DNA of 43,916 nucleotides from a virus. The stretch covers positions 1 to 43,916 of IMG/VR virus record IMGVR_UViG_3300026512_000260; one strand, given 5' to 3'. A program made the position numbers and the translations under genes. Shown here one piece after another: positions 960-42,957 of the stretch; the stretch's first letter is position 1; each line of letters starts with the position of its first letter. The notes below the pieces were generated by a model that did no database searches, was not told where the DNA came from, and saw only the letters and a list, made by a program, of their open reading frames with translations.

Positions 960-1130
960 TCTTTACTACCTCCAAAAATTAAATCGTTTTAGTTTAATTC
1001 ATAACTACATTGGCGGAGAAATTCCACTAATGTAACTTTTTTGCATACCGAGCGGAACAGTACTGGTATGCGGTTGCGACAAATCTAAACCCGAGGATTT
1101 ACGTGCATTATCACTACCTCTTAATCAAAT
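960..1130 (-). promoter_or_regulatory. Structured leader or candidate small RNA upstream of the 65-aa gene
   Basis: A non-coding gap of about 200 nt between the helicase stop (1169) and the gene starting at 959. It holds three hairpins: 1081-1085/1096-1100 (AAATC/GATTT), 1043-1049/1065-1071 (GCATACC/GGTATGC) and 1006-1011/1029-1034 (TACATT/AATGTA). The last two loops share GCGGA on the plus strand. On the minus strand a GAGGTAG box is followed by ATG and seven codons (MHVNPRV) that end inside the first hairpin, so it could be a leader peptide of an attenuator. It lacks the C/CAC signature of the seven-copy RNA family elsewhere in the window. Strand and role are inferred. Confidence 0.45.
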
Positions 1131-1168
1131 TATTATATATGTAATTTTTATTTAACAAAAATATTGAT

Positions 1169-9038: not shown

Positions 9039-9618
9039 ACCCATTTCCTCCCCTGTCTGATTTTAACAATGTTTCCCAGTTATTAAATACATCATTTGAG
9101 TAAAAAATTCCAATTTTTATTTGATTTGAAAAGTCATTTATTACTTTATCGTAAGATAATAATGGTATATATGGTTTAAGTACTAATTGACATAGACGTG
9201 TTCCAGATTTTATCACATTATTTGGTATATCTTTTGTGTGATTAAACAATTTTACTAATATCATTCCAATTTCTCCACGATATTGAGGATCAATTGTACC
9301 AGGCGAGTTTGCAACAATTAATCCATATTTGTGCAACGATGATCTCGGTCTTACTTCAAAATATAACGATGGTTTTGTAAAAGTTTTTACACCACTTTTT
9401 ATGATTTTTGGTGTATTTTCAAGATCATTTAGTTTTATATTTTCAGTGTTTACTATGTCCATACCAACATCATCGTTATATTGTAATATATAATTGTGAT
9501 TATTGTTGTAGTAATATTTATTATCCATAACTATCATTGCATCGAAGTCTGTTGATTTAACAATATCTGTAAACTCTGATGTATCAGTATTTGAATAATG
9601 TATACTAGTAATTATCAT
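9019..9618 (-). CDS. dut: dUTPase (trimeric dUTP diphosphatase family)
   Basis: It hydrolyses dUTP to dUMP, limiting uracil incorporation and feeding dTMP synthesis. The family motifs are in order: motif 2 (RPRSSLHKYG, about residue 88), motif 3 (GTIDPQYRGEIG, about 106), motif 4 (GTRLCQLVLKP) and the C-terminal P-loop-like motif 5 (RGGNGYGSTDG). At 199 aa it is longer than the usual 150, with extra residues before motif 2. Start at ATG 9618 behind TAGGAGG. It pairs functionally with the uracil-DNA glycosylase domain of the nearby polymerase. Confidence 0.9.
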   Translation of the reverse strand: MIITSIHYSNTDTSEFTDIVKSTDFDAMIVMDNKYYYNNNHNYILQYNDDVGMDIVNTENIKLNDLENTPKIIKSGVKTFTKPSLYFEVRPRSSLHKYGLIVANSPGTIDPQYRGEIGMILVKLFNHTKDIPNNVIKSGTRLCQLVLKPYIPLLSYDKVINDFSNQIKIGIFYSNDVFNNWETLLKSDRGGNGYGSTDG

Positions 9619-9729
9619 AATACTACCTCCTAATTAAAAAATATATTTTATAGTTATGTGTAATTTTCGGCATTTCGTTATATTTGTTTAAAATTCGTCT
9701 ACATTATTGAGATAAATGTTAATAAATTT

Positions 9730-9945
9730 TTAATTTTCATCGATGATTTTAATATTTACATTTTTGTCAATTTCTGCAATATTCTTAATATTATATGAAT
9801 ATATATTATATGCTTCTTTTATCTCTTTTTGTATTTCGTTGATATCCAAATTTAATTCTGAAACTAGATTTTGTGTTTTTTCCATATCTTTTCGTAAATC
9901 AAATATTATTTCAAATAATTCGTGTATTTTAGTATTAGATTTCAT
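9730..9945 (-). CDS. Small coiled-coil protein (71 aa)
   Basis: A 71-residue protein with heptad-like spacing through residues 10-50 (LFEIIFDLRKDMEKTQNLV and onward), consistent with a short coiled coil. It begins just downstream of the 98-aa gene. The ribosome binding site is weak. No known family is recognised. A 110-nt gap to the dUTPase gene shows no feature. Confidence 0.5.
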   Translation of the reverse strand: MKSNTKIHELFEIIFDLRKDMEKTQNLVSELNLDINEIQKEIKEAYNIYSYNIKNIAEIDKNVNIKIIDEN

Positions 9946-9956
9946 AACATTAAATC

Positions 9957-10253
9957 TTATTCTATTTGTTTAATTTTTATTTTGTAGCATGATACATCAT
10001 AATCACATATTAAAAATTCGGTTATATCTGTTAACAATGTATTTTCTATAATATTGTTTATTTTTATATCAATATCAATTCGTATGACTATATTATAATC
10101 ATTATCATGCGCGAAAAAATAGCATCCAAAATTTTGCCATTCATATGCTTTTAATATTTCGTTTTTCTTTTCGTTTGGAATATAAATAATATCATCATTA
10201 TTTTTATAATTTCCAATTTTAAATTTTTCATGTAACAAATTGTCTATATTCAT
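9957..10253 (-). CDS. Hypothetical protein (98 aa)
   Basis: A 98-residue protein whose ATG overlaps the stop of the RuvC-like resolvase gene by 4 nt, so the two are almost certainly co-translated. Predicted alternating strands in the second half (YNIVIRIDIDIKINNI). I recognise no motif. The coupling suggests an accessory role to the resolvase or simply operon packing. Confidence 0.6.
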   Translation of the reverse strand: MNIDNLLHEKFKIGNYKNNDDIIYIPNEKKNEILKAYEWQNFGCYFFAHDNDYNIVIRIDIDIKINNIIENTLLTDITEFLICDYDVSCYKIKIKQIE

Positions 10254-10852
10254 AATATACCTCGTATTTTTAAATAATTCTGTTTAAAAAACATTTCCAT
10301 TACAATAATAGCATCTGCGATATGTTCCTGAAAATATTTTTGTTTTGGAATTATTAAATTTGGATGTAATCGTTTCATTGTATCAATTGACATATTTTTA
10401 TCAGTTTTGACTTTTTTTGGTATTAATAATGTTTCGTAAATGATTTGTTTACATTGTATGGGTTGAAATAATTCTATATCAATATTTTTTATTGCTGCTA
10501 ATGTTATGATCATAGAACTTGAATAACCCATCATCAATTGAGCTCTAGAACTTTTTGAACCAGATGATGGAATTTCACATACAATTGTTTCTATATCAAA
10601 ATTGTCAATTATATCTGATAATTTTTTTGATGTAGATTTTATAATTTCTGAATACTGATTTATTTTATATTTACTTTTATTTTTTATTTTATTTTCGATT
10701 TTATTAATAGATTTCGATTGCTGTGAACATGTAATTTCTATTATTGATGTGTCCGTATTTTTTATGACACCACAAGTGCTTATTTTTCGTGTTTCATTAG
10801 AAATTACCCAACCTGTATTTCTAAATCCAATATCTATTGATAAAATATTCAT
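10250..10852 (-). CDS. ruvC: RuvC-like Holliday junction resolvase
   Basis: An RNase H-fold nuclease that resolves four-way DNA junctions in recombination-dependent phage replication and before packaging. It has the acidic catalytic set: SIDIGFRNTGW at the N-terminus, TIVCEIPSSGSKS in the middle and HIADAIIVME near the C-terminus, matching the D-E-DxxD layout. At 200 aa it is slightly longer than cellular RuvC (about 170). Start at ATG 10852 with a poor ribosome binding site. A 210-nt gap upstream holds the terminator of the SSB gene. Confidence 0.85.
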   Translation of the reverse strand: MNILSIDIGFRNTGWVISNETRKISTCGVIKNTDTSIIEITCSQQSKSINKIENKIKNKSKYKINQYSEIIKSTSKKLSDIIDNFDIETIVCEIPSSGSKSSRAQLMMGYSSSMIITLAAIKNIDIELFQPIQCKQIIYETLLIPKKVKTDKNMSIDTMKRLHPNLIIPKQKYFQEHIADAIIVMEMFFKQNYLKIRGIL

Positions 10853-11026
10853 ATTTCGTGGTTATAATATTTTTATTTTAAAAATAAATTATTATGCTCA
10901 TCTATATCTATATAAGTTTATTTATTATTTGTGACGTTTAATTTCATGTTAATAATACTCCATAAATGTTTATTCTACTTGTTTATACAAATTATCTTTT
11001 TTTGTTCTAATGAAAAAATACGATAT

Positions 11027-11053
11027 TTGCGCAGTGAAAAAATCACTGCGCAA
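11027..11053 (-). terminator. Intrinsic terminator after SSB
   Basis: An 11-bp perfect stem (TTGCGCAGTGA/TCACTGCGCAA) with a 5-nt loop lies 10 nt past the SSB stop codon. On the minus strand it is followed by ATATCGTATTTTTTC. The remaining gap to the RuvC start shows only a 9-codon ATG frame after a GGAG box, too short to call a gene. Confidence 0.75.
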
Positions 11054-11062
11054 TAAATTTTA

Positions 11063-11650
11063 CTAGAATAGAATATCACTTTCGCTTGGTTGTTGTAAAT
11101 TTTGAGGAAATTGTGGTTTTTGTGGTGCGTTATTCGTTGTTGTAGTCGTAGTAGTAACATTTGGTGATGATGGTGTATTAAAATTATTATTCGGTGGTGC
11201 GTTATAATTATTACTATTTTGTGATGGATTATAGTTGTTATTTGGCATTGCGTTATAATTATTACTCTGTTGATAATTTGTATTTTGATTATTATTATAT
11301 TTTTGTTGTTGATTCTGTGGTCTTGATATTATTCTTGCACCTGATGCTACAATTGTAAATTTCGTAACAGGATTTCCTCCATTTTGTGTATTATTTAATT
11401 TATATGTTACAAGTTTTCCTTCTATCCATATCAATGTTCCTTTTGTTAATCTTCCATTATAATATTCTACTAAACTTGGATTTTGCATTTCAACCGGAAT
11501 CCAATATGATCTGTCTATCCAGTTTCCGTTTTTATCCTGATATGGATCGTCTACTGCAATTGAAAATTTTATAAATACATTTCCAGATTGCATTGTTAGA
11601 TTTTCAGCATCATGCCCTATTCTTCCAATACCTACCCATTTTTGAATCAT
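11063..11650 (-). CDS. ssb: Single-stranded DNA-binding protein
   Basis: An OB-fold protein that coats ssDNA during replication and recombination. Residues 1-105 are the OB fold, opening MIQKWVGIGRIGHDAE, with the typical FSIAVDDPYQDKNG and WIEGKLVTYK segments. Residues 115-185 are a disordered Asn/Gln/Pro-rich linker, and the protein ends in an acidic tip SESDILF, equivalent to the bacterial DDDIPF tail that recruits partners. This is bacterial SSB architecture rather than T4 gp32. Its own terminator follows. Confidence 0.93.
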   Translation of the reverse strand: MIQKWVGIGRIGHDAENLTMQSGNVFIKFSIAVDDPYQDKNGNWIDRSYWIPVEMQNPSLVEYYNGRLTKGTLIWIEGKLVTYKLNNTQNGGNPVTKFTIVASGARIISRPQNQQQKYNNNQNTNYQQSNNYNAMPNNNYNPSQNSNNYNAPPNNNFNTPSSPNVTTTTTTTNNAPQKPQFPQNLQQPSESDILF

Positions 11651-26563: not shown

Positions 26564-28408
26564 CTAATCATCAATAATTTCGGTTCTTAGAATGTTAAGA
26601 TATGATTTAAATAATTTTACAATTTCCAAATTATCTTTATTTGTTGTATTTGAGAAATCGTATGAATAAAGCTTATTTATGATGTATTCTAATTTTTGCT
26701 GTATGTCATCAGATTTTAATGTAATAATTTCGTTTAAATTAAACAATGCGTCATACGCCAACAATGTCCACATTTCCATTTCACCAAATCGTTGACCACC
26801 TTGGTTTTTTCTACCTGCAGTTGGTTGTAGTGTTTTCTTAGTCAACTTACCTGATCCTCTTGCTGAAATTTTTTCCTTTACCATATGTTTTAATTTGTAA
26901 AAATATACATATCCAACTGTAGCATAGAACTTATTGTTATTGTATTCTACTATCTCTAATAATGGAGATAAGTCTGGCAATTCTTTTAAGTCCTTTTGTG
27001 CAAAGTATAATTTCATGTTTTCTTTTATATTTGGATTTAAATATATTGTTGCATCAATTATTTGTTGTCTTGAAGATGATTCAAATGGTGGTGCAGGAAA
27101 TGTTAGTTGTAGATCATGAATTTCTTCAATTGAATTTATAGTTTCAAGTTGAGATTTCGTTTGCTCAATTATCCATTTTTCTTCTGTATTATCTATTATT
27201 TCATAGAATCCCATTATGAATTTTTTTGCATCATCCAAATTCTCCATTTCTTTTATACGTTTTTCCATGTGATATATACAGTTACCAGCAATTATTTCAT
27301 AAATCTGTCCTATGTTCATCCTGGAAATTATTGACATTAAATCAACATTTATATCAACCATTCTATTTTCATTCTTTGTTATAATAATAGGAAGATCATT
27401 GTTTGTTATTTTAGAGATTACACCTTTTGCTGCATGTCTATTTGTTATTTTATCTCCTTCTCTAATTTTATCTATTGATCTTAAAACAATTTTTACATAC
27501 ATATCAAACTTATTTTTACCATAAACTATTTTAGACTGTTTGTAATTCATTAAATTCTGATAATCAAATAAATTATGATAACGTTTTATTTCTGATTTTA
27601 TATATTCGTCATCTATTGTTGCATCTATTTTTTGTGCTAATTTATCTTTTTGTTGCAAAATTTCTAAAACTGCAATATCGTATTCACGAATATCATGATT
27701 CCAAACATTTGCAACTAAATCTGTTTCTATTACTTCAGAATCCTCTGAAATATAAACTGGTTTTGGATCTTCTATTATTGATTCAGAAGATGAATTTTTT
27801 AACAATAAAATAGGTTCAAATGCTTTTATTTTTTCTCCAACGGTAGGAAGAATTTTATATGAATCTTTATTGTCCAATGATAATAATGAAACTGTAGCTG
27901 GTACATGTTGTTCAATAACGTGATATTTATAGCTATCAAGATTTACAGTATCGCTTAAAACGATTGAATCTTGATAACACCATGGATGCAAGATTATACT
28001 ACAAAGTAAATTTTTACCTTGTGCTAAATTTCCATTATTATCAAAATAACCTATTTTGTATGAGATCACATCACCTTTTTTGAATTCAGTTTTTTCTTCT
28101 GGAATTTTATAGTAATATGAGACTTTGAATATTTTATATTTATCATTATCTGATGATGGGTTTTTATTTTCGATTAATATAATACGTGTACTACTAAATA
28201 CTACGACACAGTCAAATGGTGCATAAATAATATCTGGCTCAAGAACTTTATTTCGTTCTAATGTTGTTTCTACAATAGGAGGTTCATTTTCTACTAACGG
28301 AACTGCTTGTCTGCATTGTGATGCAGCCATTTGATTACGTATTGCATCGTTATAATTACAAAATGGTGTGCTTATAGATAACTGAGGACAAAATAATATC
28401 TTTTTCAC
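26564..28408 (-). CDS. RNA polymerase beta subunit, C-terminal half
   Basis: The C-terminal half of a multisubunit RNA polymerase beta subunit, as in jumbo phages that carry split polymerase genes. It begins in the region around NDAIRNQMAASQCRQAVP, then shows DKITNRHAAKGVIS (about residue 320) and the near-universal QPTAGRKNQGGQRFGEMEMW (about 530-548). It ends soon after, as beta does. At 614 aa it lacks the N-terminal lobes, which must be encoded outside the window. The GTG start at 28408 follows AGGAGG by 6 nt and a long hairpin lies just upstream. Confidence 0.92.
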   Translation of the reverse strand: MKKILFCPQLSISTPFCNYNDAIRNQMAASQCRQAVPLVENEPPIVETTLERNKVLEPDIIYAPFDCVVVFSSTRIILIENKNPSSDNDKYKIFKVSYYYKIPEEKTEFKKGDVISYKIGYFDNNGNLAQGKNLLCSIILHPWCYQDSIVLSDTVNLDSYKYHVIEQHVPATVSLLSLDNKDSYKILPTVGEKIKAFEPILLLKNSSSESIIEDPKPVYISEDSEVIETDLVANVWNHDIREYDIAVLEILQQKDKLAQKIDATIDDEYIKSEIKRYHNLFDYQNLMNYKQSKIVYGKNKFDMYVKIVLRSIDKIREGDKITNRHAAKGVISKITNNDLPIIITKNENRMVDINVDLMSIISRMNIGQIYEIIAGNCIYHMEKRIKEMENLDDAKKFIMGFYEIIDNTEEKWIIEQTKSQLETINSIEEIHDLQLTFPAPPFESSSRQQIIDATIYLNPNIKENMKLYFAQKDLKELPDLSPLLEIVEYNNNKFYATVGYVYFYKLKHMVKEKISARGSGKLTKKTLQPTAGRKNQGGQRFGEMEMWTLLAYDALFNLNEIITLKSDDIQQKLEYIINKLYSYDFSNTTNKDNLEIVKLFKSYLNILRTEIIDD

Positions 28409-32130: not shown

Positions 32131-32173
32131 GTAACAATACCTCCTTATTATTGAAAATATATTTTTTATTAAT

Positions 32174-32322
32174 AGTCCGATACACAAACGAATGCGGTTA
32201 TGACGAAGAGTATATTATGGATATATTCTTCGTCAAACTCGCAGGAGTTGAATATGCTAAACTTTTTTTTTTTGAATGGACGTTTGAATATTATATTCAA
32301 ACTGATGTATCACTATCGGACT
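32174..32322. ncRNA. Structured RNA family, copy 1 (149 nt)
   Basis: Closing helix 9 bp (AGTCCGATA at 32174-32182 with TATCGGACT at 32314-32322). C follows the 5' strand; CAC (32311-32313) precedes the 3' strand. Inside are hairpins at 32201-32235 (TGACGAAGA/TCTTCGTCA), 32236-32249 (AACTC/GAGTT) and 32282-32302 (GTTTGAATA/TATTCAAAC). The 3' end runs into TTTTTTT on the plus strand. Strand undetermined. Confidence 0.75.
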
Positions 32323-32327
32323 TTTTT

Positions 32328-32444
32328 TCTCGATGCTTTAACAAGGTATGGAGTGAATATCATGATCTCCATACCAATTTGTATGCTGTGTTTTTTATCT
32401 TGTATAAGTATTAATACTCATACATGTTCTAATCACCATCGAGA
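32328..32444. ncRNA. Structured RNA family, copy 2 (117 nt)
   Basis: Closing helix 8 bp (TCTCGATG at 32328-32335 with CATCGAGA at 32437-32444), C after the 5' strand and CAC (32434-32436) before the 3' strand. Internal hairpins: GGTATGGAG/CTCCATACC and AGTATTAATACT with outer GTAT/ATAC. Its helix ends in G:C where the other copies end in A:T, yet pairing is kept. Plus-strand tail is TTTTTAT. Confidence 0.75.
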
Positions 32445-32454
32445 TTTTTATAAA

Positions 32455-32634
32455 AATAGCAATACTTCATCTACACCCCTCGTTGTAGATTCGTATCACC
32501 ATTGGTGCGATGGATACGAATTTTCATACGAGAATTCGTATCCGAGCACTATGAGGTGTTACGAATCTTATTTATTTTAGCGATGTTTGAAAATTTACTG
32601 TTTCAATTAATTGAAACAACACACTATTGCTATT
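32455..32634. ncRNA. Structured RNA family, copy 3 (180 nt)
   Basis: Closing helix 10 bp (AATAGCAATA at 32455-32464 with TATTGCTATT at 32625-32634), C after the 5' strand, CAC at 32622-32624. Internal hairpins include ATCTACA/TGTAGAT, a long pair ATACGAATT/AATTCGTAT that can compete with CGTAT-type pairings, and the near-palindrome TGTTTCAATTAATTGAAACA just before the CAC. Confidence 0.75.
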
Positions 32635-32637
32635 TAT

Positions 32638-32775
32638 TTACTTGATACACATAGTTTATGCATCTTCTTCCTTCGGATAAAGGGAAGGAAGTAGATGTGT
32701 ACAACTTGCATTTTTTTACTGCCATAAAATGAGAAATGAAATTTATTCATTTCTTTATTACTCACTATCAAGTAA
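32638..32775. ncRNA. Structured RNA family, copy 4 (138 nt)
   Basis: Closing helix 10 bp (TTACTTGATA at 32638-32647 with TATCAAGTAA at 32766-32775), C then CAC (32763-32765). One long hairpin runs ACACAT...ATGTGT with an inner CTTCCTT/AAGGAAG stem, and a second, GAAATGAA/TTCATTTC, lies 9 nt before the CAC. Confidence 0.78.
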
Positions 32776-32780
32776 TTACT

Positions 32781-32978
32781 TTCCGATAATACTTAATAAT
32801 TGTATGTTTATGAATTTCATTTTGTATTACTTAGGGATTCTGCTCAAATAACGGATGATCATAATCCCTTCTGGACGGTAGTCCAGTTGGGATTATGCTC
32901 TATCCGTTTTCGAAATTTGTCCTGACATTTAAATTTTGAGTTCATTAATAAAATGACTCGTTTTCACTATTATCGGAA
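32781..32978. ncRNA. Structured RNA family, copy 5 (198 nt)
   Basis: Closing helix 11 bp (TTCCGATAATA at 32781-32791 with TATTATCGGAA at 32968-32978), C then CAC (32965-32967). It has the most elaborate interior: nested stems AACGGAT/ATCCGTT, CATAATCCC/GGGATTATG and CTGGAC/GTCCAG, then a GAGT.CATT/AATG.ACTC hairpin 5 nt before the CAC. It ends about 26 nt before the AP2 gene's stop codon. Confidence 0.78.
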
Positions 32979-33004
32979 TTCCTTTGTATTATATCGTTAA
33001 TATT

Positions 33005-33799
33005 TTACTTGTAAAGCTTAACTTTTTCGGGCAAAAATATCTTTATGATATTTTTATAATATTTCCATTCTGCTTCACGTCTTGCTTTTTGTGCATCTGT
33101 CATATTATTAAAATAGCCAATATGTTTTTTTATACCATTCGAAGAAATAGTCACTTCATATTTATCTCTCCTTTTGTTATACACTATACCTGGGTGTTTT
33201 TTATTTTGTAAGTTATAAAGAAACACATTTTCTGATTGTGTTACAATCTTTAAATTTGATTTTCTTAAGTCTTGTTTTGTTTTAGTCGGTTGTTTTATTA
33301 ATTTTACTATTTTTTTATCTGAATTTTTCATGTTCATAATAATTCTGGAAAGTTTATCTTTTAATTGCTTTGTATTAGACCCATTTTTATAATTTACAAT
33401 AACACGGTTATCATTTACATAAATACAAATAACATCATAATCAATTAATTTTTTTATTCCAGATTTATCGATTAAGATTTTATAATTTGACGGATTATTA
33501 AGTATTAATTCTACATATTGTTTTTCATTTTTATCTTTGGGTTTAATCATATTAACTTTTTTAACGTTTGTTATATTAGATAAGAAATACAACTCCGTAT
33601 TTGTTAAAATCTTTTTTGAATTTTTATCAGACGTTTTTGCACTTTTATTTTCTTTAGATTGATCTTTTTTGTTTTGTTTAATCGTTCTTTTCTTTGTTTC
33701 GTTTTTTAGAGATCTTACATTTTTTTTCAATTTAGTATCTGATTTAACTTTGTTTCCACTTTTCTTAACCTTTTTTGTTTCCTTGTCTTTTTTAGACAT
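33005..33799 (-). CDS. AP2-domain DNA-binding protein with lysine-rich N-terminus
   Basis: Residues 1-65 are a very lysine-rich, disordered segment. The C-terminal 65 residues (HPGIVYNKRRDKYEVTIS, then KKHIGYFNNMTDAQKARREAE) match the AP2/ERF-type DNA-binding domain found in phage homing endonucleases and regulators. No HNH or GIY-YIG nuclease motif is present, so it is probably a DNA- or RNA-binding protein rather than an endonuclease. Start at ATG 33799 behind AAAGGAGG. It lies next to the tandem RNA array, so the array may be its target or mobile partner, though this is speculative. Confidence 0.7.
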   Translation of the reverse strand: MSKKDKETKKVKKSGNKVKSDTKLKKNVRSLKNETKKRTIKQNKKDQSKENKSAKTSDKNSKKILTNTELYFLSNITNVKKVNMIKPKDKNEKQYVELILNNPSNYKILIDKSGIKKLIDYDVICIYVNDNRVIVNYKNGSNTKQLKDKLSRIIMNMKNSDKKIVKLIKQPTKTKQDLRKSNLKIVTQSENVFLYNLQNKKHPGIVYNKRRDKYEVTISSNGIKKHIGYFNNMTDAQKARREAEWKYYKNIIKIFLPEKVKLYK

Positions 33800-33814
33800 T
33801 AATTAATCCTCCTT

Positions 33815-35146
33815 TTATAATTCTAAAAGATTTTTATACATATTATCAATGTATTCTTTAGAGTTTTTCTTAATTTTTCTTAATTCCTGTATCTTTTCAT
33901 CATATTTTGAAACATCAGTATTTATAGTAAGCAATGTTTTTATATTATATTTCGTTATGACATCTAAAATTACTTTTTCAGAGTATTTAATTTTATTAGA
34001 TAGTTCTTTAATAATTGTTTTTAAATCTTTTGTTGTATTTTTATATAAATGTAAATGCTGTTGTAATAATTTTATGATTTTTAATTCATCTTTTAAATCA
34101 CCAATTCTTTTTAGTTCATAATTTATATATTCAATATAAGTTTTAGAAAAAAACTCATATGAATATTTTAGGTATTCATCAACTGAAATTTGTTCTGTTT
34201 TTTCTGATTCTATATTGCTTACCACTATTTCATATTGATTAGAAAAAACCATGTTATCAACAGCATTACATAATTGTTGAAAAATTTTATCTTGATTTTT
34301 TTTAGAGTTGACTGTGAAATGAAAGCAAACAGTTTCATCTTTAGTGCATTTTAATTGTCGTGATACATGTTTTGGAACCGGTAATTCTATGAAACTAACT
34401 TGCTGATCTGTCCATAAATTACCAAGTTTTTTTATCACATTTTTAAATGTAAATTCAGGTGAAGATAATATATATACACTTTTACTTTTTAAGTCTTTAT
34501 AAGCTTTAATTCTAAAATCGATTGATACTTTTTTATTTGATTCAAGTAATTTTCTACATGTTTTTGCATCAGAAATACACGTTGCACCTATAATTTTTGG
34601 TTTTATAACTTTCGATTTATCAAACAATCTATTTATTAAATCATTTTTAGAATATACAGGTATTGTTGTTTTTCTACCAAATCCCATAAAAGACTGTGTA
34701 TATTTACAAATTAAACAAAATGGTAACATTGTTGGAAATGCAATAGGTTCTGGATCTAATTCATCAGGTTCCCATTTAACATGTTTCACATATTTTAATG
34801 CTAATTCATATGTAAATTTAGATAATTTTACATTCGTATATCTTGCTGCTGCGCACGAACTTGGTTCACTTCCAAGTTTTGTGCCCCACCAACCATCACC
34901 ATCTAAAAATCCATTTTGAACAGCCCATTGAACTGTTCCAAGTTGCTCAGCATGGGGATGCCATTTACCAATTATTTCACCAAGTATTTTTGCTGTTTTT
35001 GTAAATGATTTTTGTGCAATTGTATATGCAGCAAGAATAGTTCTTCTTTGTACAGGTAATAATCCATCACGTATATCAGGAAACATTTTCTTAAAATTAA
35101 CATACATTCCATATTCTTTATAGTATTGTGGAACGATTTTATCCAT
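33815..35146 (-). CDS. Type IIA DNA topoisomerase, subunit A (T4 gp52-like)
   Basis: The DNA-cleaving subunit that forms the covalent tyrosyl-DNA link. It shows the winged-helix/tower core: DIRDGLLPVQRRTILAA, KILGEIIGKWHPHAEQ and AAARYTNVKLSKF with the catalytic Tyr at about 103. At 443 aa it matches T4 gp52 (442) and lacks the gyrase C-terminal wrapping domain, so it is a relaxing and decatenating enzyme. Start at ATG 35146 behind GAAAGGAG. It is separated from its partner gene by the lone plus-strand gene. Confidence 0.9.
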   Translation of the reverse strand: MDKIVPQYYKEYGMYVNFKKMFPDIRDGLLPVQRRTILAAYTIAQKSFTKTAKILGEIIGKWHPHAEQLGTVQWAVQNGFLDGDGWWGTKLGSEPSSCAAARYTNVKLSKFTYELALKYVKHVKWEPDELDPEPIAFPTMLPFCLICKYTQSFMGFGRKTTIPVYSKNDLINRLFDKSKVIKPKIIGATCISDAKTCRKLLESNKKVSIDFRIKAYKDLKSKSVYILSSPEFTFKNVIKKLGNLWTDQQVSFIELPVPKHVSRQLKCTKDETVCFHFTVNSKKNQDKIFQQLCNAVDNMVFSNQYEIVVSNIESEKTEQISVDEYLKYSYEFFSKTYIEYINYELKRIGDLKDELKIIKLLQQHLHLYKNTTKDLKTIIKELSNKIKYSEKVILDVITKYNIKTLLTINTDVSKYDEKIQELRKIKKNSKEYIDNMYKNLLEL

Positions 35147-35169
35147 TTATTCTCCTTTCATACATTTTT

Positions 35170-35270
35170 AAAGTTGATACGATGATATTGTAATAAAATC
35201 AAATTGTGTTTAAAATATTATATGAAATAGGGAAATGAAGATCATTTCCCTTATTTTCACTATCAACTTT
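35170..35270. ncRNA. Structured RNA family, copy 6 (101 nt, minimal)
   Basis: Closing helix 10 bp (AAAGTTGATA at 35170-35179 with TATCAACTTT at 35261-35270), C then CAC (35258-35260). The only strong internal hairpin is AGGGAAATG/CATTTCCCT, 6 nt before the CAC. It is the smallest copy and lies between divergent genes: topoisomerase subunit A on the minus strand and the basic protein on the plus strand. A plus-strand T tract follows the helix. Confidence 0.72.
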
Positions 35271-35310
35271 TTAGAACAAATTTAAAATTAATTATGGAGG
35301 ATACAAGAAT

Positions 35311-35562
35311 ATGTCTTCAAAAACTAATAAAAAGAGCAAAAAAACATCGTATATAAAAGTAGATCCTCGTAAAAAAGCTAAAATGAAAGTTTCAGCTGCA
35401 GCTATCCAAATAGCCAAAAAACATGATGATCCATTATATAAAAAATATGCTAAATTTAGAAAACTAATGTTTAAATATAGAAAAGTTTTAGTTAAAAGAT
35501 ATGGATCAAAAGCAATGACTAAGCTTAGAAAATCTGGAAATATGGTTGTAAGATCTTGGTAA
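35311..35562 (+). CDS. Small basic nucleoid-like protein (83 aa), only plus-strand gene
   Basis: An 83-aa protein with about one third Lys/Arg (KKAKMKVSAAAIQIAKKHDD, then FRKLMFKYRKVLVKRYG). The pattern suggests a helical DNA-binding or virion-packaged protein, like small basic condensing proteins of large phages, but no HU or H-NS motif is present. It has a GGAGG box about 10 nt upstream. It is the only gene on the plus strand, set inside the two-gene topoisomerase unit and just after copy 6 of the RNA family. Confidence 0.75.
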   Translation: MSSKTNKKSKKTSYIKVDPRKKAKMKVSAAAIQIAKKHDDPLYKKYAKFRKLMFKYRKVLVKRYGSKAMTKLRKSGNMVVRSW

Positions 35563-35567
35563 ATAAT

Positions 35568-37364
35568 TTAAATTTTGAATTTATTATCTAATAATTGCCT
35601 TTTGTATTCTGAACTCGAAAGCAGTTTTTCCAATTTATCTAGTTTCTTTGTCCACTTCACCTGATCTAATTGCCTGTCTTTTCCTAATGTAAATCTAAAT
35701 ATTTCAGGTGGATTAAATTCACCAAGACCTTTAAATCTTCTTATTTTTATACCTTTATTTCTGCATTCGTTTAGTTCTTTTTCTGTCCATATAGGTTTAA
35801 ACGTATCATTTTTTCCTATCCCATATAATGGTGTTTTACACACATATAAATATGATTCCTTTATAACTTCAGGTATATATTTAGCAAAAAACATTATCAA
35901 TAATGTTGTTATAAATTTACCAGCAGGGTCAGCATCTGCAGCAAGCAAAATCTTACTATATCGTATATTTTCGATTTTTACATGTGGATGTATACCAGTA
36001 CCTATAGCATTTACCAAATCTGAAATAACATCATTTTTTATTAACTTTTTTGTATCCATTGTTATTGCATTGGGTATAACACCACGTAATGGTAAAATTG
36101 CATGTTTTGTTATATCTCTAATTGAATTTAATCCTGATATAGCTGAATCACCTTCACCAATTAATAATTCACCTCCTGGTTTGGTACAATCTTTTAATTT
36201 TGTGTATTTAGTAGAACCTCTTGTTTTATTGTTTTTAGCTTTTAATAATGATGCATTTCTTTGCTTTCGATATGCTTCAAAAAATTGACATAAATATTCA
36301 AATTGATCTTGATTTTGTTTTTTCCATTCTAATAATTTTGATTCAAGATTATCCATGATACTTATATCAGATTTACTTTCTAATCTAACCTTTACTTGTG
36401 CATCAAATGCTGTATTCACAATTCGTAAATCAATATAGCATCTTAATCCAACTAAACAATCATCTTTTTCAAATTTAAATTTCTTAACGTTGAAAACTTT
36501 TTTTAATGTATTGTAAAATTTATTTAAATGAACTCCTGAGTGAACCGGTACTAAATTTACTGATGTAAATGCTTTTGGCATAACACTACCTTTTTCATCC
36601 CAAGTAAACCATATATCGTATGATTCTATTTTCTTTTTATCGGTATGTTGGATTCTAAACCAATTATCTTTTGATGTAGCTGATAAGTCATGTAAAATAT
36701 CATAAATTGTTGAGTTTATTTCTTGTTGTTTTCCATCGATTATACATTCAATTTCTAATTTTGGGTATGCAATTTTTGCTAGCTTTAATCTTTCAATGAT
36801 TTTATCAATATCATAATGAATTGATTTGAAATACTTCTTATTTGGTATAGCATAAATCATTGTGCTAAATGGTGGTTCTGATTTATATGCATTTTGCTTT
36901 CTTAAAATAAATTTTCCTTTTTTAAATTCGTATGTTGCATGCTTTTTATCTCGATATATTTCCATTTTCAATTTATCACTTAATGCATTAATTGCTGTTA
37001 ATCCAATTCCGTGTAACCCAGACGCTATTTTATACGGTGAATCCTTTACATCTTTGTTAAATTTCCCAGATGTAGACATCTCTGTACAAGATAGAATCGG
37101 TGGGTCTTTTTCTATTGGTAGCTTTTGATCAAATGGAAATCCTCTTCCCCAATCCTTAACTTTAAATGCATTTCCGTCAATTTCTATAGATAGTTTATTG
37201 CAAAATCCAGCCTGAACCTCATCTAACACATTATCCAGTGCTTCCATTAATAAATGGTTTGGATTTTCTGTGCTTCCAATATACATAGATGTATTTTTTT
37301 GAATGACCTTAATATCATCAAGTTTTATAATATCTTTAGTCGAGTAATTGGGGTTTTTACCCAT
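35568..37364 (-). CDS. Type IIA DNA topoisomerase, subunit B (T4 gp39-like)
   Basis: The ATPase and Toprim subunit. The GHKL ATPase domain shows EALDNVLDEVQ (Mg-binding Asn), VKDWGRGFP and SGLHGIGLTAINALS. The Toprim domain shows LIGEGDSAISG (about residue 405), LPLRGVIPNA and AADADPAGKFI (about 476), then FKGLGEFNP. 598 aa is complete for the family. The ribosome site (GGAGGATG) lies inside the radical SAM stop region, so the two genes are coupled. It pairs with the gp52-like subunit downstream. Confidence 0.92.
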   Translation of the reverse strand: MGKNPNYSTKDIIKLDDIKVIQKNTSMYIGSTENPNHLLMEALDNVLDEVQAGFCNKLSIEIDGNAFKVKDWGRGFPFDQKLPIEKDPPILSCTEMSTSGKFNKDVKDSPYKIASGLHGIGLTAINALSDKLKMEIYRDKKHATYEFKKGKFILRKQNAYKSEPPFSTMIYAIPNKKYFKSIHYDIDKIIERLKLAKIAYPKLEIECIIDGKQQEINSTIYDILHDLSATSKDNWFRIQHTDKKKIESYDIWFTWDEKGSVMPKAFTSVNLVPVHSGVHLNKFYNTLKKVFNVKKFKFEKDDCLVGLRCYIDLRIVNTAFDAQVKVRLESKSDISIMDNLESKLLEWKKQNQDQFEYLCQFFEAYRKQRNASLLKAKNNKTRGSTKYTKLKDCTKPGGELLIGEGDSAISGLNSIRDITKHAILPLRGVIPNAITMDTKKLIKNDVISDLVNAIGTGIHPHVKIENIRYSKILLAADADPAGKFITTLLIMFFAKYIPEVIKESYLYVCKTPLYGIGKNDTFKPIWTEKELNECRNKGIKIRRFKGLGEFNPPEIFRFTLGKDRQLDQVKWTKKLDKLEKLLSSSEYKRQLLDNKFKI

Positions 37365-37367
37365 ATA

Positions 37368-38321
37368 TCATCCTCCTTCCATATACATACATGTCCAACT
37401 ACATCCTTCACAATATTTTCTGATATCAAGTTTACGTTTTTCAATATACTCATTTATAAATCCATTGTAATCATCTGACTTTATATATTTTTCAACATCA
37501 ATAGTTGGTGTTTCAGTTCCTCTTAATCTTAAACAATTGCGTATAGATCCATCAGCATCCATTGTCAATGAGTTTAAATTTTTATAACCACATTTTACTA
37601 TGCCATTACTTGATGATAAAACATGTTCAATTCCTTTTGGGTTTACTAATATTTCTGGATATTTTCCTTTTATATCGTTTATTATTTCTCTAAATTCTAA
37701 AATTTGATCTTTATTTAATAATAATGAATTTTTATTATAATTTTTTTCAGCAAAATCATAATAATTATTAAGTGGTTCCTCAATTATAGACACACTTATC
37801 CTAAAATTGTTTTCAAGTGCTAAATTTACTATTGAGTAAATGTTTTTATAATTTGTTTTATCAACAACGACTTCCGCAACCTTATCAAGTCTATTGTTAT
37901 TTTTATACGATTTCAACATTTCAAGGCCATAATCTGATTTTATATTTCTTGATTTATCTATACTATTTGGATCCAAACTTACTGTTAATCCTACTAAATA
38001 TGGCTCTACTTTTTTGACATTTTCAGGATACATTGCATTTGTTATTACAGATGATGGTACATTTTTTTCATATAATGATTTTATAAGTAAGTGAAAGTCA
38101 TTATATAGTGTTGGTTCTCCACCATAAATTAAGACAAATAAATCATTATCATACCTTTTTAAAAAATCAATAAAATCCATAAAATATTTATAACTTTTAT
38201 TGAAACCAATATAGTATTTTAATCGTGGATACTCTTTTGGAATGTTTGTATAATATTTAGTTATTCTACAATAATTACAACTTAAATTACAGATTCTAGT
38301 TACTAAAAGGTTCAAAATCAT
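37368..38321 (-). CDS. Radical SAM protein with SPASM-like C-terminus
   Basis: A radical S-adenosylmethionine enzyme with the cluster motif CNLSCNYC (Cys11, 15, 18) and the SAM-binding YGGEPTLY. The C-terminus has additional cysteines (KCGYKN, RNCLRLRG, CEGCSWTC) like a SPASM/twitch domain for auxiliary iron-sulfur clusters. It is 317 aa, larger and differently built than QueE (about 220 aa), so I do not call it QueE. ATG 38321 fits the GAGGTG box. It lies next to GAT-QueC and may carry out a further step in base modification, or modify a peptide; the substrate is unknown. Confidence 0.8.
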   Translation of the reverse strand: MILNLLVTRICNLSCNYCRITKYYTNIPKEYPRLKYYIGFNKSYKYFMDFIDFLKRYDNDLFVLIYGGEPTLYNDFHLLIKSLYEKNVPSSVITNAMYPENVKKVEPYLVGLTVSLDPNSIDKSRNIKSDYGLEMLKSYKNNNRLDKVAEVVVDKTNYKNIYSIVNLALENNFRISVSIIEEPLNNYYDFAEKNYNKNSLLLNKDQILEFREIINDIKGKYPEILVNPKGIEHVLSSSNGIVKCGYKNLNSLTMDADGSIRNCLRLRGTETPTIDVEKYIKSDDYNGFINEYIEKRKLDIRKYCEGCSWTCMYMEGG

Positions 38322-38338
38322 AATTTTCACCTCATTCT

Positions 38339-38496
38339 ATATGTGATACTCAAAAAAGATGTAAAATGTGATCCTACGGCAACTCGTGACCTTCGGGAAC
38401 GAAGTTGACTGTATGGATCTCATTTTACCGCTTTAATTTAGATTTTTTTAGATCTTACGTTGATAATATTATCAACGCTTCTTCACTATCACATAT
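38339..38496. ncRNA. Structured RNA family, copy 7 (158 nt)
   Basis: Closing helix 10 bp (ATATGTGATA at 38339-38348 with TATCACATAT at 38487-38496), C then CAC (38484-38486). A long hairpin GTAAAATG.GATCC/GGATC.CATTTTAC encloses CAACT/AGTTG and a CCTTCGGG tetraloop stem. The perfect palindrome GTTGATAATATTATCAAC lies 7 nt before the CAC. It fills the gap between the GAT-QueC and radical SAM genes exactly. Confidence 0.78.
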
Positions 38497-38505
38497 TTTT
38501 AATTA

Positions 38506-40131
38506 CTATGTTATAAGTTTTTTAATTTCTTCGATAGGGGGCAAATATTTTCTTATGTTATCAATGTTTTCACTATTCCATCTACTTTCCATGATGTCTG
38601 GTTTAAAAGCCACTTCATAATAATTTCGTTTATCTTTTATACCTACTATTTCAGCTGCCCATGATGATAATAACCCACTACCACATGCTGGTTTTCCTTT
38701 ATAGCTGCATTGATAAATTTTTCCATTTTCAATTTTTGCATTATCACAAGAAACTGTCATATTAAATAATTCTTCCATTCCAATGTATTTTAGTAAAATT
38801 AGTTCCTCTTTTTTTGTAAGATTTTCAAAAATATTTACCCAACGTATTTTTTGATTTGCACCAGCTAATGACGCAAAACGTAGTAATTCTTCAAATTTTT
38901 CTACAAAGCGCGATGAGTTGTCTGGGTAAAATGATTCTTCATCAATATTTGGATATCCCCCAGCAATAAAGATATTACTGTATTTATTATTATAGATTAG
39001 TTCTTCCGCATATATTGATGCCAATGACATAAATAACAAATTTCTTACCGGAACCCATGCGTTTGTAGTTTTTAGATTATCACCGGCTGTATCTATATTT
39101 ATGTTTTTGTTTATTAACATTGATGTTGGTTTTTCATTAATTGATAGCTTTTTATAAATGCTAGAAATATCCACAATTTTAAGATCAACATCTATTTTTT
39201 TACATATGTTTTTTACTGCTAATTCTTCTGCATCTTGTGATTTTTGACCATATTTTATATGCAGTGCAGTTACATCCATATTTATATGTTTTAAATATGC
39301 AAGTGTTGTTGTACTGTCAATTCCTCCAGATGCAAGAACTATATATTTTGTGTCTTTTTCATATGGCTTATCTTGTTTCCATGTTGGGTGTTTAAATTTA
39401 ATACTATAGTTTTCTTCAGTTAATAATTGACTATCAATATCTACTCTTATTATAGAATATGGTGGTCTATCATCTACATAAAAGTTTTCCCACGTTCTAG
39501 TAAATTTTATTTGACATTTTGTAAATTCTGATAAAGCTGCAGACACACCGTCACGTGTAGAATGTAAAACATATCCCATACCTTTCGCATATCCTTGTGC
39601 TAAAGGTAAAAAACTTGATATACCATATAACATTTTTGTTTTTATATCAAATGCTATAATACTCCATCCACCAGTTAATGCTTCTACTGTATTTTTCATA
39701 TTTTTATGATTCTGGTGATATATTCTACCGAAAACTTCACTATCAAAATCTATATCATCAAATTGCTTTACCAGAGTATCTGAAAATGCACCATTGTGTA
39801 CATAAAATATATCTTTATATTTTATTGGTTGTAAAAAGTATTTTTTGTCATAGTTCATTTTTTCAGTTTCAGGTGCATTTCTTGCACTAAACAATATAAT
39901 GTCATTGAGTTTGATATTTTCTTTTAGAAACTTATAAACTTCATCTACACTTTTTGAGAAAGGTGTTTGTTTGTACAAACATTTAAAATAATTGTTATCG
40001 TTAGTTTGTGGATGAATAATACACAATCCAAATCCATCACGTCCACGCTTTTCAGCTTCTCTAAATGCTGCAATAAAAGATTCTATAGGTGGTACAGATT
40101 CTGTTAAGTGAAATCCTGTAATGCCACACAT
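38506..40131 (-). CDS. GAT-QueC fusion (glutamine amidotransferase plus QueC-like domain)
   Basis: A class II glutamine amidotransferase domain (residues 1-240: MCGITGF with catalytic Cys2, RGRDGFG, SARNAPE, HNGAF) fused to a QueC-like ATPase domain (VLASGGIDSTTTLAYL, about 265, then ALHIKYGQKSQ). Such fusions make archaeosine-type bases by adding ammonia to preQ0, and in phages are linked to 2'-deoxyarchaeosine or amido-deazaguanine in DNA. The QueC zinc cysteines are altered (SCDNA, QCSYKGKPACGSG). 541 aa. Start ATG 40131 behind GAGGT. With DpdA it predicts modified phage DNA. Confidence 0.88.
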   Translation of the reverse strand: MCGITGFHLTESVPPIESFIAAFREAEKRGRDGFGLCIIHPQTNDNNYFKCLYKQTPFSKSVDEVYKFLKENIKLNDIILFSARNAPETEKMNYDKKYFLQPIKYKDIFYVHNGAFSDTLVKQFDDIDFDSEVFGRIYHQNHKNMKNTVEALTGGWSIIAFDIKTKMLYGISSFLPLAQGYAKGMGYVLHSTRDGVSAALSEFTKCQIKFTRTWENFYVDDRPPYSIIRVDIDSQLLTEENYSIKFKHPTWKQDKPYEKDTKYIVLASGGIDSTTTLAYLKHINMDVTALHIKYGQKSQDAEELAVKNICKKIDVDLKIVDISSIYKKLSINEKPTSMLINKNINIDTAGDNLKTTNAWVPVRNLLFMSLASIYAEELIYNNKYSNIFIAGGYPNIDEESFYPDNSSRFVEKFEELLRFASLAGANQKIRWVNIFENLTKKEELILLKYIGMEELFNMTVSCDNAKIENGKIYQCSYKGKPACGSGLLSSWAAEIVGIKDKRNYYEVAFKPDIMESRWNSENIDNIRKYLPPIEEIKKLIT

Positions 40132-40742: not shown

Positions 40743-41489
40743 TTAAATTACTTTATTTGACATATCAATTATAGTTTCACAATATTTCATACTTTGTTGC
40801 CATCGTATCGGATTGTATTTTTCCTTATTGGATTTTAATTCAGAATAATATTCTACAATTTTATTTTTATTAAATGGTAAAATTTTATATGGAAATAATG
40901 CAACATTTCTTCTAAAACATGCTCTACAGTTATAGCAATGAGGGTCAGGTTTTGTTACATCTGGATTATAACATGAAAACGTCTCTTTAGATAAATCTTT
41001 TATGTTACCATATCTTTCTATAAACCAATTTACAATTTCACTTTTAGTTAAATTAAAATTAAAAGCCGATTTCATTTTAACCTTGATGGGATTGTTAGAT
41101 TTTGTGAGACATGATGAAAATTCTTTATAAATTTCACGATTATTATCTGAAATTCTATCATCTAACAAACCACCGGTATATATATTTATATCTCTGTTAT
41201 TGTAATTAAAATGAATTGTTGTTAATAATGCCATCAATAAATTTCTGTTTGGAATAAATGCATCATGATGCTCATATTTAGAAATTTGATTAAATTCAAG
41301 TATAACACAATTTGGCCGATATTTCATAATATATTGTTGTTCAGTTTTACTATATATGTGATTTAGATTTATATATACCGGTATCAAATTTTCAATTTTC
41401 AGTGTGTCTTTTAAATAATAATATCCAATGTAACTATCTACACCACTGGAATATAATATAATGTTTAATGGTGAATTTTCATAACACAA
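40743..41489 (-). CDS. queC: QueC-like preQ0 synthase
   Basis: An adenine nucleotide alpha hydrolase-fold enzyme converting 7-carboxy-7-deazaguanine to preQ0 with ATP and ammonia. The PP-loop is YSSGVDSYIGYYYL near the N-terminus, and the zinc site is complete near the C-terminus: ETFSCYNPD then HCYNCRACFRR, as in cellular QueC. 248 aa. The start is TTG 41489, 7 nt after AAAGGAG; no suitable ATG exists in frame. It supplies preQ0 for GAT-QueC and DpdA. QueD, FolE and a clear QueE are not in the window and may come from elsewhere in the genome or the host. Confidence 0.87.
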   Translation of the reverse strand: MCYENSPLNIILYSSGVDSYIGYYYLKDTLKIENLIPVYINLNHIYSKTEQQYIMKYRPNCVILEFNQISKYEHHDAFIPNRNLLMALLTTIHFNYNNRDINIYTGGLLDDRISDNNREIYKEFSSCLTKSNNPIKVKMKSAFNFNLTKSEIVNWFIERYGNIKDLSKETFSCYNPDVTKPDPHCYNCRACFRRNVALFPYKILPFNKNKIVEYYSELKSNKEKYNPIRWQQSMKYCETIIDMSNKVI

Positions 41490-41520: not shown

Positions 41521-41937
41521 TTACTTTGAAATATTCAAATTACTTGTATATTTATTAGAAATATCGAAAATTATTTCTAATAATTTCTTCTCGCTTTCGC
41601 ATAAATCATTTTGAATTATATGTTTTATGATCGATTCATCAATGTTAAAAACTATTTTTGGATCATAAATATCATATTGAAACGCATTTGTATGACCAGT
41701 GAGTTCATTTCCAATTTCAGCAAGCACTTTCATTAAATGACCAAGAGGATTTTGTAATTTTCCATATCGTAAATTATAATTTTTTACTTCATCGATGAAT
41801 TGTTGTTTAATTCTACCTACACTTTCTTCTGGAAACATACCTATCATTTGTGCAGTTAAATTCCATGATTCTACCGATCCACCCAGTATCTTTTCCATAA
41901 TTCCTACTAACTGTATTTTCTTGTTATCGTCATTCAT
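41521..41937 (-). CDS. Hypothetical protein encoded next to the reverse transcriptase (138 aa)
   Basis: Mainly helical protein, acidic, with GSVESWNLTAQMIGMFPEES and GHLMKVLAEIGNELTGHTN as notable segments. It starts at ATG 41937 (AAAGGGA upstream); a TTG six codons earlier directly abuts the reverse transcriptase stop. It is the immediate downstream partner of the reverse transcriptase, the position where retron accessory or effector proteins are often found, but it matches no effector I know. Confidence 0.65.
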   Translation of the reverse strand: MNDDNKKIQLVGIMEKILGGSVESWNLTAQMIGMFPEESVGRIKQQFIDEVKNYNLRYGKLQNPLGHLMKVLAEIGNELTGHTNAFQYDIYDPKIVFNIDESIIKHIIQNDLCESEKKLLEIIFDISNKYTSNLNISK

Positions 41938-41955
41938 TTTTATATTCCCTTTCAA

Positions 41956-42957
41956 TTATTTTTCGTTTAGCATAGATATTAATTTTATCTCACTTATGAC
42001 ATTGTCATACGTTAATGGTGTATATTTTGATTGTTTTTCCACCATTTTTTCTAATGCGAATAGACCACGTATTTCGTTAGTTATATCTATTTTATTATTA
42101 TCTACCAAATAATGTAATGCTTTTATTTTTTTTCTTACTTCTTTGGGTAACGCAACTTTATCATTTACAACAAGTCCACACACAAGTTGTCTATATTTTC
42201 TCGAAACGCATATTGATTTTTTCTCATTAAGTAATATTTTTCCATCATATAGATTTTCTAACATTTTGGTTATTTTGTTTTTAAAATAACCGATGAAACA
42301 CATCTCATTCATGGAAATTGTTATGTCATCTGCATATCTAGTATAATTAATATTTAATTTGTTATCGTAGTATTTTTCTAGATTTTTAATGATGTTTACA
42401 ATTCCCCAATCAAATTGTCTCATTATAAAATTTGAAATGTGTGGACTTGTTGGTGCACCTTGTGGTAATCTATATTTTGGTATTCCGTTTTGGTCTATTT
42501 CCTTTACAAAGCATGTTTCAATTATTTGATCATATAATTTTTTCATTTTTTTATTACTGTTATTAGATGTATATAATTTATACATGTTTTTATTATATAG
42601 ACGATTATAATAATGATTTCTGTATTGAGAATATGCAAATGATTTGAACACTTTTCTGAATAATTTATCATCAATTGATGAAAAAAAATCTTTGATGTCA
42701 AATTTTATTATATATTTTTTACCAACATGTGGTAATGCATTTGTAACTATACTTTTATTTACAACAAAACCATGCGCAAATGGACTTATAGATAAATATT
42801 TATATAGTACATTTTTTAACAATTTACGTTGTTTCTGCTGTAGTTGACGATTTGGTGCTTCTATAATACGATATCCACCTCGATGTTTTGGAATTTTAAA
42901 TACAGTATATCTATCATCCAAAACATAATCATTTATGGTGTTTTCTTGGGTATTCAA
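41956..42957 (-). CDS. Retron-type reverse transcriptase
   Basis: An RNA-dependent DNA polymerase of the retron class. Motifs: SPFAHGF, NALPH (residues 73-77, the retron NAxxH region X), IKFDIKDFFSSI (motif A), LPQGAPTSPHISNF (164-177), YTRYADDITIS with the catalytic YADD at 208-211, and VCGLVVN (259-265), a variant of the retron VTG region Y that binds the RNA. 333 aa is full length. Start TTG 42957, 9 nt after AGGAGG. Only 23 nt separate it from thioredoxin, leaving no space for an adjacent msr-msd RNA. It lies in the same gene cluster as QueC. Confidence 0.93.
   Translation of the reverse strand: MNTQENTINDYVLDDRYTVFKIPKHRGGYRIIEAPNRQLQQKQRKLLKNVLYKYLSISPFAHGFVVNKSIVTNALPHVGKKYIIKFDIKDFFSSIDDKLFRKVFKSFAYSQYRNHYYNRLYNKNMYKLYTSNNSNKKMKKLYDQIIETCFVKEIDQNGIPKYRLPQGAPTSPHISNFIMRQFDWGIVNIIKNLEKYYDNKLNINYTRYADDITISMNEMCFIGYFKNKITKMLENLYDGKILLNEKKSICVSRKYRQLVCGLVVNDKVALPKEVRKKIKALHYLVDNNKIDITNEIRGLFALEKMVEKQSKYTPLTYDNVISEIKLISMLNEK

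Follow-up and report, generated by a model that had tools for sequence, protein, structure and literature searches.

Seven elements between the genes of a phage fragment

The stretch of DNA analysed here, called the window, comprises 43,916 nucleotides (nt) of a large tailed phage (IMG/VR record IMGVR_UViG_3300026512_000260). It contains one reverse transcriptase (RT) gene and seven short elements closed by inverted repeats, whose nature and relation to the RT are the subject of this study. All the elements sit in intergenic gaps, five of them in tandem in 32131-33004, one in 35147-35310 and one in 38331-38505, and the neighbouring genes are all on the minus strand, except 35311-35562. The likeliest start of the SbcC-like gene adjoining the five-copy array is a GTG at 32130, behind a ribosome-binding site. 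In a previous description made from the letters only (the sequence-only reading), the elements were read on the plus strand as structured RNAs sharing one plan, with a C directly after the 5' strand of the closing helix, CAC directly before its 3' strand and a short hairpin near the CAC; no connection was drawn between them and the RT at 41956-42957.

The window was scanned, without knowledge of the coordinates given in that description, for perfect helices of at least 7 base pairs (bp) whose 5' strand is followed by C and whose 3' strand is preceded by CAC, with arms 60-260 nt apart. On the plus strand the scan recovered exactly these seven, whose arms measure 8-11 bp; an additional match with 7-bp arms, inside coding sequence (10377-10585), was left out. 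The identical rule gave zero matches on the opposite strand of the window. Searched in its minus-strand form (GUG...G) with a minimum arm length of 8 bp, the rule gave seven elements, whereas 60 sequences simulated from a second-order model of the window yielded 0.4 on average and 2 at most, which bears out the existence of the family. Most of the coordinates given earlier stood. The third element was corrected to 32454-32635, with an 11-bp helix, the helix of the second (32328-32444) is 8 bp long and, in the fifth, the C comes only after the full 11-bp helix (TTCCGATAATA).

The closing helix was fully paired in the seven elements, with 56 of 56 cells paired in an alignment of their ends. Double-sided changes were found at six of the eight helix pairs, the other two being invariant, and the covariation score was 0.952 compared to 0.26 for shuffled ends and at most 0.17 when the ends were slid. 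The perfect helices of 8-11 bp and their compensatory changes, both claimed from the letters, were thus confirmed. Since the pairing is far above chance expectation and carries compensatory changes, the closing helix is a selected pairing. The proposal of a family of selected structured RNAs was therefore supported, except for its strand, the RNA being most likely on the minus strand. The interiors of the seven elements are mutually unrelated.

Anatomy and orientation on the minus strand

In published descriptions, a retron is a bacterial defence system of three parts that acts against phages and keeps its single template RNA next to the RT (PMC6868368, PMC12548924). This RNA has complementary ends (a1 and a2) of about 8-30 bases with the priming guanosine either terminating the 5' arm or immediately following it, an msr part with one to three hairpins of 7-10 bp and loops of 3-10 nt, and an msd part with a long hairpin containing mismatches or wobble pairs (PMC6868368), the stem of which is about 10-50 bp. 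The sequence-only reading knew of no family with a C...CAC junction, a statement that did not hold: reverse-complemented, C...CAC reads as the retron junction a1-G...G-a2.

As controls, inverted repeats were sought upstream of the RT in 80 IMG/VR contigs encoding relatives of the window RT (contigs used for comparison are labelled L or G, followed by a number). This control scan recovered the Eco1 layout (CACCCTTA, then GCGAGA...TGACG, then TAAGGGTG) and the Ec67-type layout (GGCA, then GATTTG...AAGAG, then TGCC), and each control bacterial retron showed just one template, located upstream of its RT. Although the control RNAs were selected only on G...G at the junctions, an A before the first G and a T after the last G were present in 23 of the 23 compared. 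In two of them (L017 and L030), which match the Rfam family RF00170 'Retron msr RNA' at the predicted position, the junction is exactly A followed by GUG, as in six of the seven window elements. The second element is the sole copy with a1 ending in G and a2 beginning in C.

On the minus strand, the window elements are laid out as a1 (8-11 nt), GUG, 3-9 nt, a short hairpin, a variable stretch of 49-146 nt, G and a2. The GUG directly follows a1 in all seven, and its first G, which occupies the same position as in the control retrons, would by analogy be the candidate residue for 2'-OH priming. The short hairpin, placed near the CAC in the earlier description, was found in the seven elements at a spacing of 3-9 nt. 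This msr hairpin has 8-10 pairs and loops of 3-5 nt, with a single bulge in the fifth element; it should be noted that 14% of random positions are also followed by such a hairpin. The variable stretch folds as a long hairpin in most copies: the msd hairpin is clear in copies 1, 3, 4, 5 and 7 and has 9 bp in copy 2. The arms of 8-11 bp lie within the retron range of about 8 bases or more and the msr hairpins within that of about 7-10 bp with a loop of 3-10 nt. As far as can be read from the sequence, every structural feature of a retron is present in most or all copies, the long msd hairpin being clear in five.

The first array element in minus-strand order is non-coding RNA (ncRNA) 5 (32781-32978), with an 11-bp a1/a2 helix (UUCCGAUAAUA), GUG, an msr hairpin at 32938-32959 that contains the bulge, and a long msd hairpin. 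It is followed by ncRNA 4 (32638-32775), with a 10-bp a1/a2 helix (UUACUUGAUA), GUG, an msr hairpin at 32732-32754 and an msd hairpin, and by ncRNA 3 (32454-32635), with an 11-bp a1/a2 helix (AAAUAGCAAUA), GUG, an msr hairpin at 32599-32618 and a long msd hairpin. The a1 of ncRNA 2 (32328-32444) is at 32437-32444 (UCUCGAUG); GUG, an msr hairpin at 32401-32424, in which one of the 10 pairs is a G-U on the minus strand, and the 9-bp msd hairpin complete this element. In ncRNA 1 (32174-32322), a1 (32314-32322, AGUCCGAUA) and the putative priming GUG (32311-32313) precede an msr hairpin at 32282-32302 (9 bp, 3-nt loop), a long hairpin on the template side and a2 (32174-32182). Both dispersed copies lie on the minus strand as well and have 10-bp a1/a2 helices and GUG. 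The msr hairpin of ncRNA 6 (35170-35270, AAAGUUGAUA) is at 35229-35251 (10 bp, 3-nt loop) and its variable side is short; ncRNA 7 (38339-38496, AUAUGUGAUA), which occupies the gap separating two minus-strand genes, has an msr hairpin at 38458-38477 and a long msd hairpin.

A promoter-like sequence (TTTACA-16-TATAAT, 11 of 12 consensus positions) lies at 32988-33015 on the minus strand; transcription from it would be expected to begin near 32981, only a few nt ahead of the a1 of ncRNA 5. Its -35 box overlaps the last codons of the gene at 33005-33799. Five promoter-like sites with at least 11 of 12 consensus positions were found in the 44 kb of the window, four of them on the minus strand, and the predicted array promoter is the only minus-strand site of this quality with its -10 box between genes. 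From this predicted promoter, the array would be transcribed on the minus strand in the order 5-4-3-2-1. As a consensus match picked after the fact, in a phage that has its own RNA polymerase subunits, the promoter is taken as supporting evidence only.

The position of the elements also bears on whether they could be cis-acting leaders of the downstream minus-strand genes, such as attenuators or stability or processing signals. Copies 1, 6 and 7 do lie just upstream of the ribosome-binding sites of the SbcC-like, topoisomerase II A-subunit and radical-SAM genes, respectively. However, leaders would not be expected to come in five tandem copies ahead of a single gene, nor to have unrelated interiors, a GUG/G junction that never varies or an msr-type hairpin, and other gene starts in the window have no such elements, which makes this explanation very unlikely.

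Searches of the window in Rfam, at gathering and at lax thresholds, gave nothing significant, the matches to caiA and snoU54 being far below threshold. No tRNA or tmRNA was detected in the window, searches of IMG/VR with TerL, GyrB and the whole RT returned no close relatives, and the array DNA matched phage records at chance level only. Unfiltered inverted-repeat scans were too noisy in AT-rich DNA and were not used. A candidate eighth element (10971-11070, minus strand) was rejected: it has a GTA junction, its a1 lies inside the end of the SSB gene, and it looks like a terminator hairpin combined with a chance repeat. Separately, the gap at 960-1168 (minus strand), before a DnaB-like helicase gene, folds strongly (-45.6 kcal/mol) and contains several GC-richer hairpins; neither an Rfam match nor a retron junction was found in it.

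The reverse transcriptase and the retron interpretation

The RT (333 amino acids (aa), 41956-42957, minus strand) has intact YADD and NALPH (NAxxH) motifs and an insertion of about 30 aa around residues 112-150. It matches retron libraries far better (PADLOC RT_X, 1e-59; NCBIfam St85, 2e-55) than group II (9e-13), and the best solved structure by sequence is Ec86 (3e-28). An AlphaFold model of good confidence (pLDDT 85, pTM 0.81) was compared with the PDB, and the top 18 fold matches are all retron RTs. The top RT match, annotated 'Staphylococcus phage SA 1306 Kay', was set aside because it seems to be a bacterial retron, next to which lies a PRTase-like open reading frame, rather than a phage relative.

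Taken together with the layout of the elements, these data make it very probable that the seven elements are minus-strand retron msr-msd template RNAs that serve, in trans, the single RT of the phage. Diversity-generating retroelements likewise combine a phage RT with a template RNA; the window RT is of the retron type, not of theirs, and a diversity-generating retroelement was rejected on this ground and because the msd regions have no above-chance match elsewhere in the window. Indeed, when the msd regions were compared with the rest of the window, with antisense or donor sequences in mind, the longest matches were no better than those of shuffles.

Several observations weigh against the retron interpretation. 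No template RNA lies beside the RT, the elements being 3.5-9.8 kb away, and the window lacks the compact cassette of msr-msd and RT that all experimentally validated retrons have (PMC6868368), so that the elements represent a retron variant and not a typical member. The RT has VCG where VTG is expected; this residue change is common to the fully supported three-member clade (100/98) of the window RT, L095 and L113, VTG substitutions have been reported in other retrons (PMC6868368), and with YADD and NALPH intact we counted the motif set (YADD, NAxxH, VTG) as present. L095 and L113, the closest relatives found for the RT, show no such elements in their 9- and 27-kb fragments. Copy 6 has no clear long msd hairpin. 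Rfam RF00170 matches control retrons with the A-GUG junction, but its gathering score is not reached by the window elements; it also misses the Eco1-type control L031. Finally, the folding energy of the whole element is lower on the plus strand in six of the seven.

This last point, together with T-rich stretches after the plus-strand 3' ends of several copies, would fit plus-strand structured RNAs (helix-C...hairpin-CAC-helix) unrelated to the RT, for instance small regulatory or decoy RNAs arranged in tandem. However, the energy bias arises from the template side, whose plus-strand complement is more stable in all seven copies because the G-T pairs there become A-C on the minus strand. In the retron interpretation the plus strand is the complementary DNA, so that selection on the DNA hairpin would give such a bias; the same comparison in control retrons was split by type (11 of 23). 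By contrast, the only wobble among the msr hairpins (copy 2) is a G-U on the minus strand and would be an A-C on the plus strand. The minus strand also carries nearly all neighbouring genes and the predicted array promoter, and only there does the asymmetry in junction and hairpin match the retron layout: the plus-strand reading misfits it because the short hairpin is at the wrong end and the junction bases are C. We therefore regard unrelated plus-strand RNAs as unlikely.

The pairing of the arms bears on a further explanation, that the elements are dispersed or decaying retron RNA copies with no function as a set. The only precedent for multiple msr-msd copies is the duplicated repeats of Retron-Nex1 (Ne160) of Nannocystis exedens, which are several in number and, as in the window, have no RT within a kilobase (PMC6868368). 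The Nex1 repeats are described as apparently duplicated (PMC6868368), whereas the window elements have unrelated interiors, covarying helices and an RT in the same phage. Decay would lose pairing and retain sequence similarity; here the helices are perfect through compensatory change while the interiors have fully diverged. Each copy therefore seems to be kept under selection, and decaying copies are an extremely improbable explanation.

Among the tested proteins neighbouring the RT, no known effector domain was found, in a record that is a 44-kb fragment. The only candidate accessory protein is a 144-aa protein encoded directly after the RT (41521-41955, minus strand), which has no family match. 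Further along, a glutamine amidotransferase-like domain is fused to QueC (38506-40131, minus strand) and a second QueC-like gene lies at 40743-41489; from their sequences, these genes are likely to serve 7-deazaguanine DNA modification. The minus-strand gene directly before the five-copy array (33005-33799) is similar to the part of phage HNH/homing endonucleases that binds DNA, at their C-terminus (PHROG matches, 1e-8). The gene at 26564-28408 (minus strand) encodes a C-terminal fragment of an RNA polymerase beta subunit, as in jumbo phages with split multi-subunit polymerases.

Retron-like RNAs in other phages and possible roles

Compared with bacterial retrons (Retron-Eco1/Ec86, Ec78/Eco7, Ec83 and the St85 family), the window shows the same RT family and fold, a1/a2 helix, priming-G position, short msr hairpin and A-G...G-U junction and, in most copies, a long msd hairpin. 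By contrast, bacterial retrons have one template beside the RT and an effector gene, whereas the window, from a large tailed phage, would have seven templates, none of them beside the RT, and has no effector that could be recognised among the neighbouring proteins tested.

When a short piece of the window RT was used in a second scan, it brought a clade of large-phage RTs, several contigs of which carry more than one putative a1-G...G-a2 RNA; the RNAs of the three contigs given here (G002, L139 and L109) are predictions from their sequences. G002 (L144; IMGVR_UViG_3300033463_000062), a 90-kb phage with one retron-like RT, has at least four dispersed RNAs over 12 kb (record positions 68851-68913, 77639-77703, 79080-79143 and 80921-80980), which have a common msr core (GCGTTCGGTCTTATCGAACGT) and differ in the remainder; a fifth, unlike these, lies immediately behind the RT (L144:10536-10686). 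Two tandem retron-like RNAs with arms of 10-12 bp directly follow an RT of the same clade in L139 (10542-10829), where tRNAs adjoin them, and in L109 (10711-11062). Like the window, these three phages have more than one such RNA per retron-like RT. They differ from it in that the RT belongs to a different clade, the RNAs are near or directly after the RT and the msr core is recognisable by sequence. Given this second, unrelated phage lineage, the sequence data suggest that the multi-template theme is wider than the window genome.

The scan for such RNAs gave no comparable set in the AT-rich phage G005, which has a distant RT and was covered over its whole 180 kb, and therefore does not generate such sets by itself; no comparable set was found in the parts of G006-G008 that were covered. 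A possible second retron-like RNA lies upstream of the RT in L150/L154 and L122, besides the downstream one. In the phage contigs L095 and L113, the RT (5650-6573 and 9593-10423, respectively) is located among the portal and terminase genes, and no template RNA adjoins it.

From the anatomy of the elements and the type of the RT, we infer minus-strand transcription, copying of these RNAs by the RT, production of DNA and a role for this DNA in the phage. Each RNA would fold with a1 paired to a2, and the RT would bind the small msr hairpin of 8-10 bp. DNA synthesis would be primed by the 2'-OH of the G that adjoins a1, with the rest of the RNA beyond this hairpin, as far as the G preceding a2, serving as template. 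As the seven template parts are mutually unrelated, a single RT would thereby yield up to seven different small branched single-stranded DNA (ssDNA) hairpins, or msDNAs, which in retrons have a 2'-5' bond.

In defence retrons, the msDNA restrains an effector or senses phage proteins such as SSB or methyltransferases (PMC13158370, PMC12548924). As no effector is recognisable and the genome is that of a phage, a role other than defence is favoured, and we tentatively suggest that the ssDNA hairpins could act as decoys or antidotes against host defence, directed for example at host retron effectors, ssDNA-sensing proteins or nucleases; this is the likeliest of the roles considered, although less probable than not. 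Titration of host repair or ssDNA-binding proteins, provision of ssDNA for phage replication or recombination, and superinfection exclusion are alternatives. Searches of the open-access literature (PMC) gave no report of phage or multi-template retrons; subscription papers and most preprints were outside this scope and priority is not established.

On balance, we lean towards the view that large phages have turned the one-template defence retron into a one-enzyme, many-template system, in which one RT with no recognisable effector makes a repertoire of unrelated ssDNA hairpins from dispersed RNAs in the course of infection; these would probably tie up, mislead or neutralise proteins of the host, its retron effectors among them. 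If so, the same chemistry would be used differently, as an ssDNA repertoire on the phage side. The purpose of phage msDNA, the recognition of several templates by one RT and the use of these products against host retrons or ssDNA sensors would become testable, and retron genome editing would gain a natural RT able to accept many unrelated inserts next to a single small msr hairpin, as is desired in that field.

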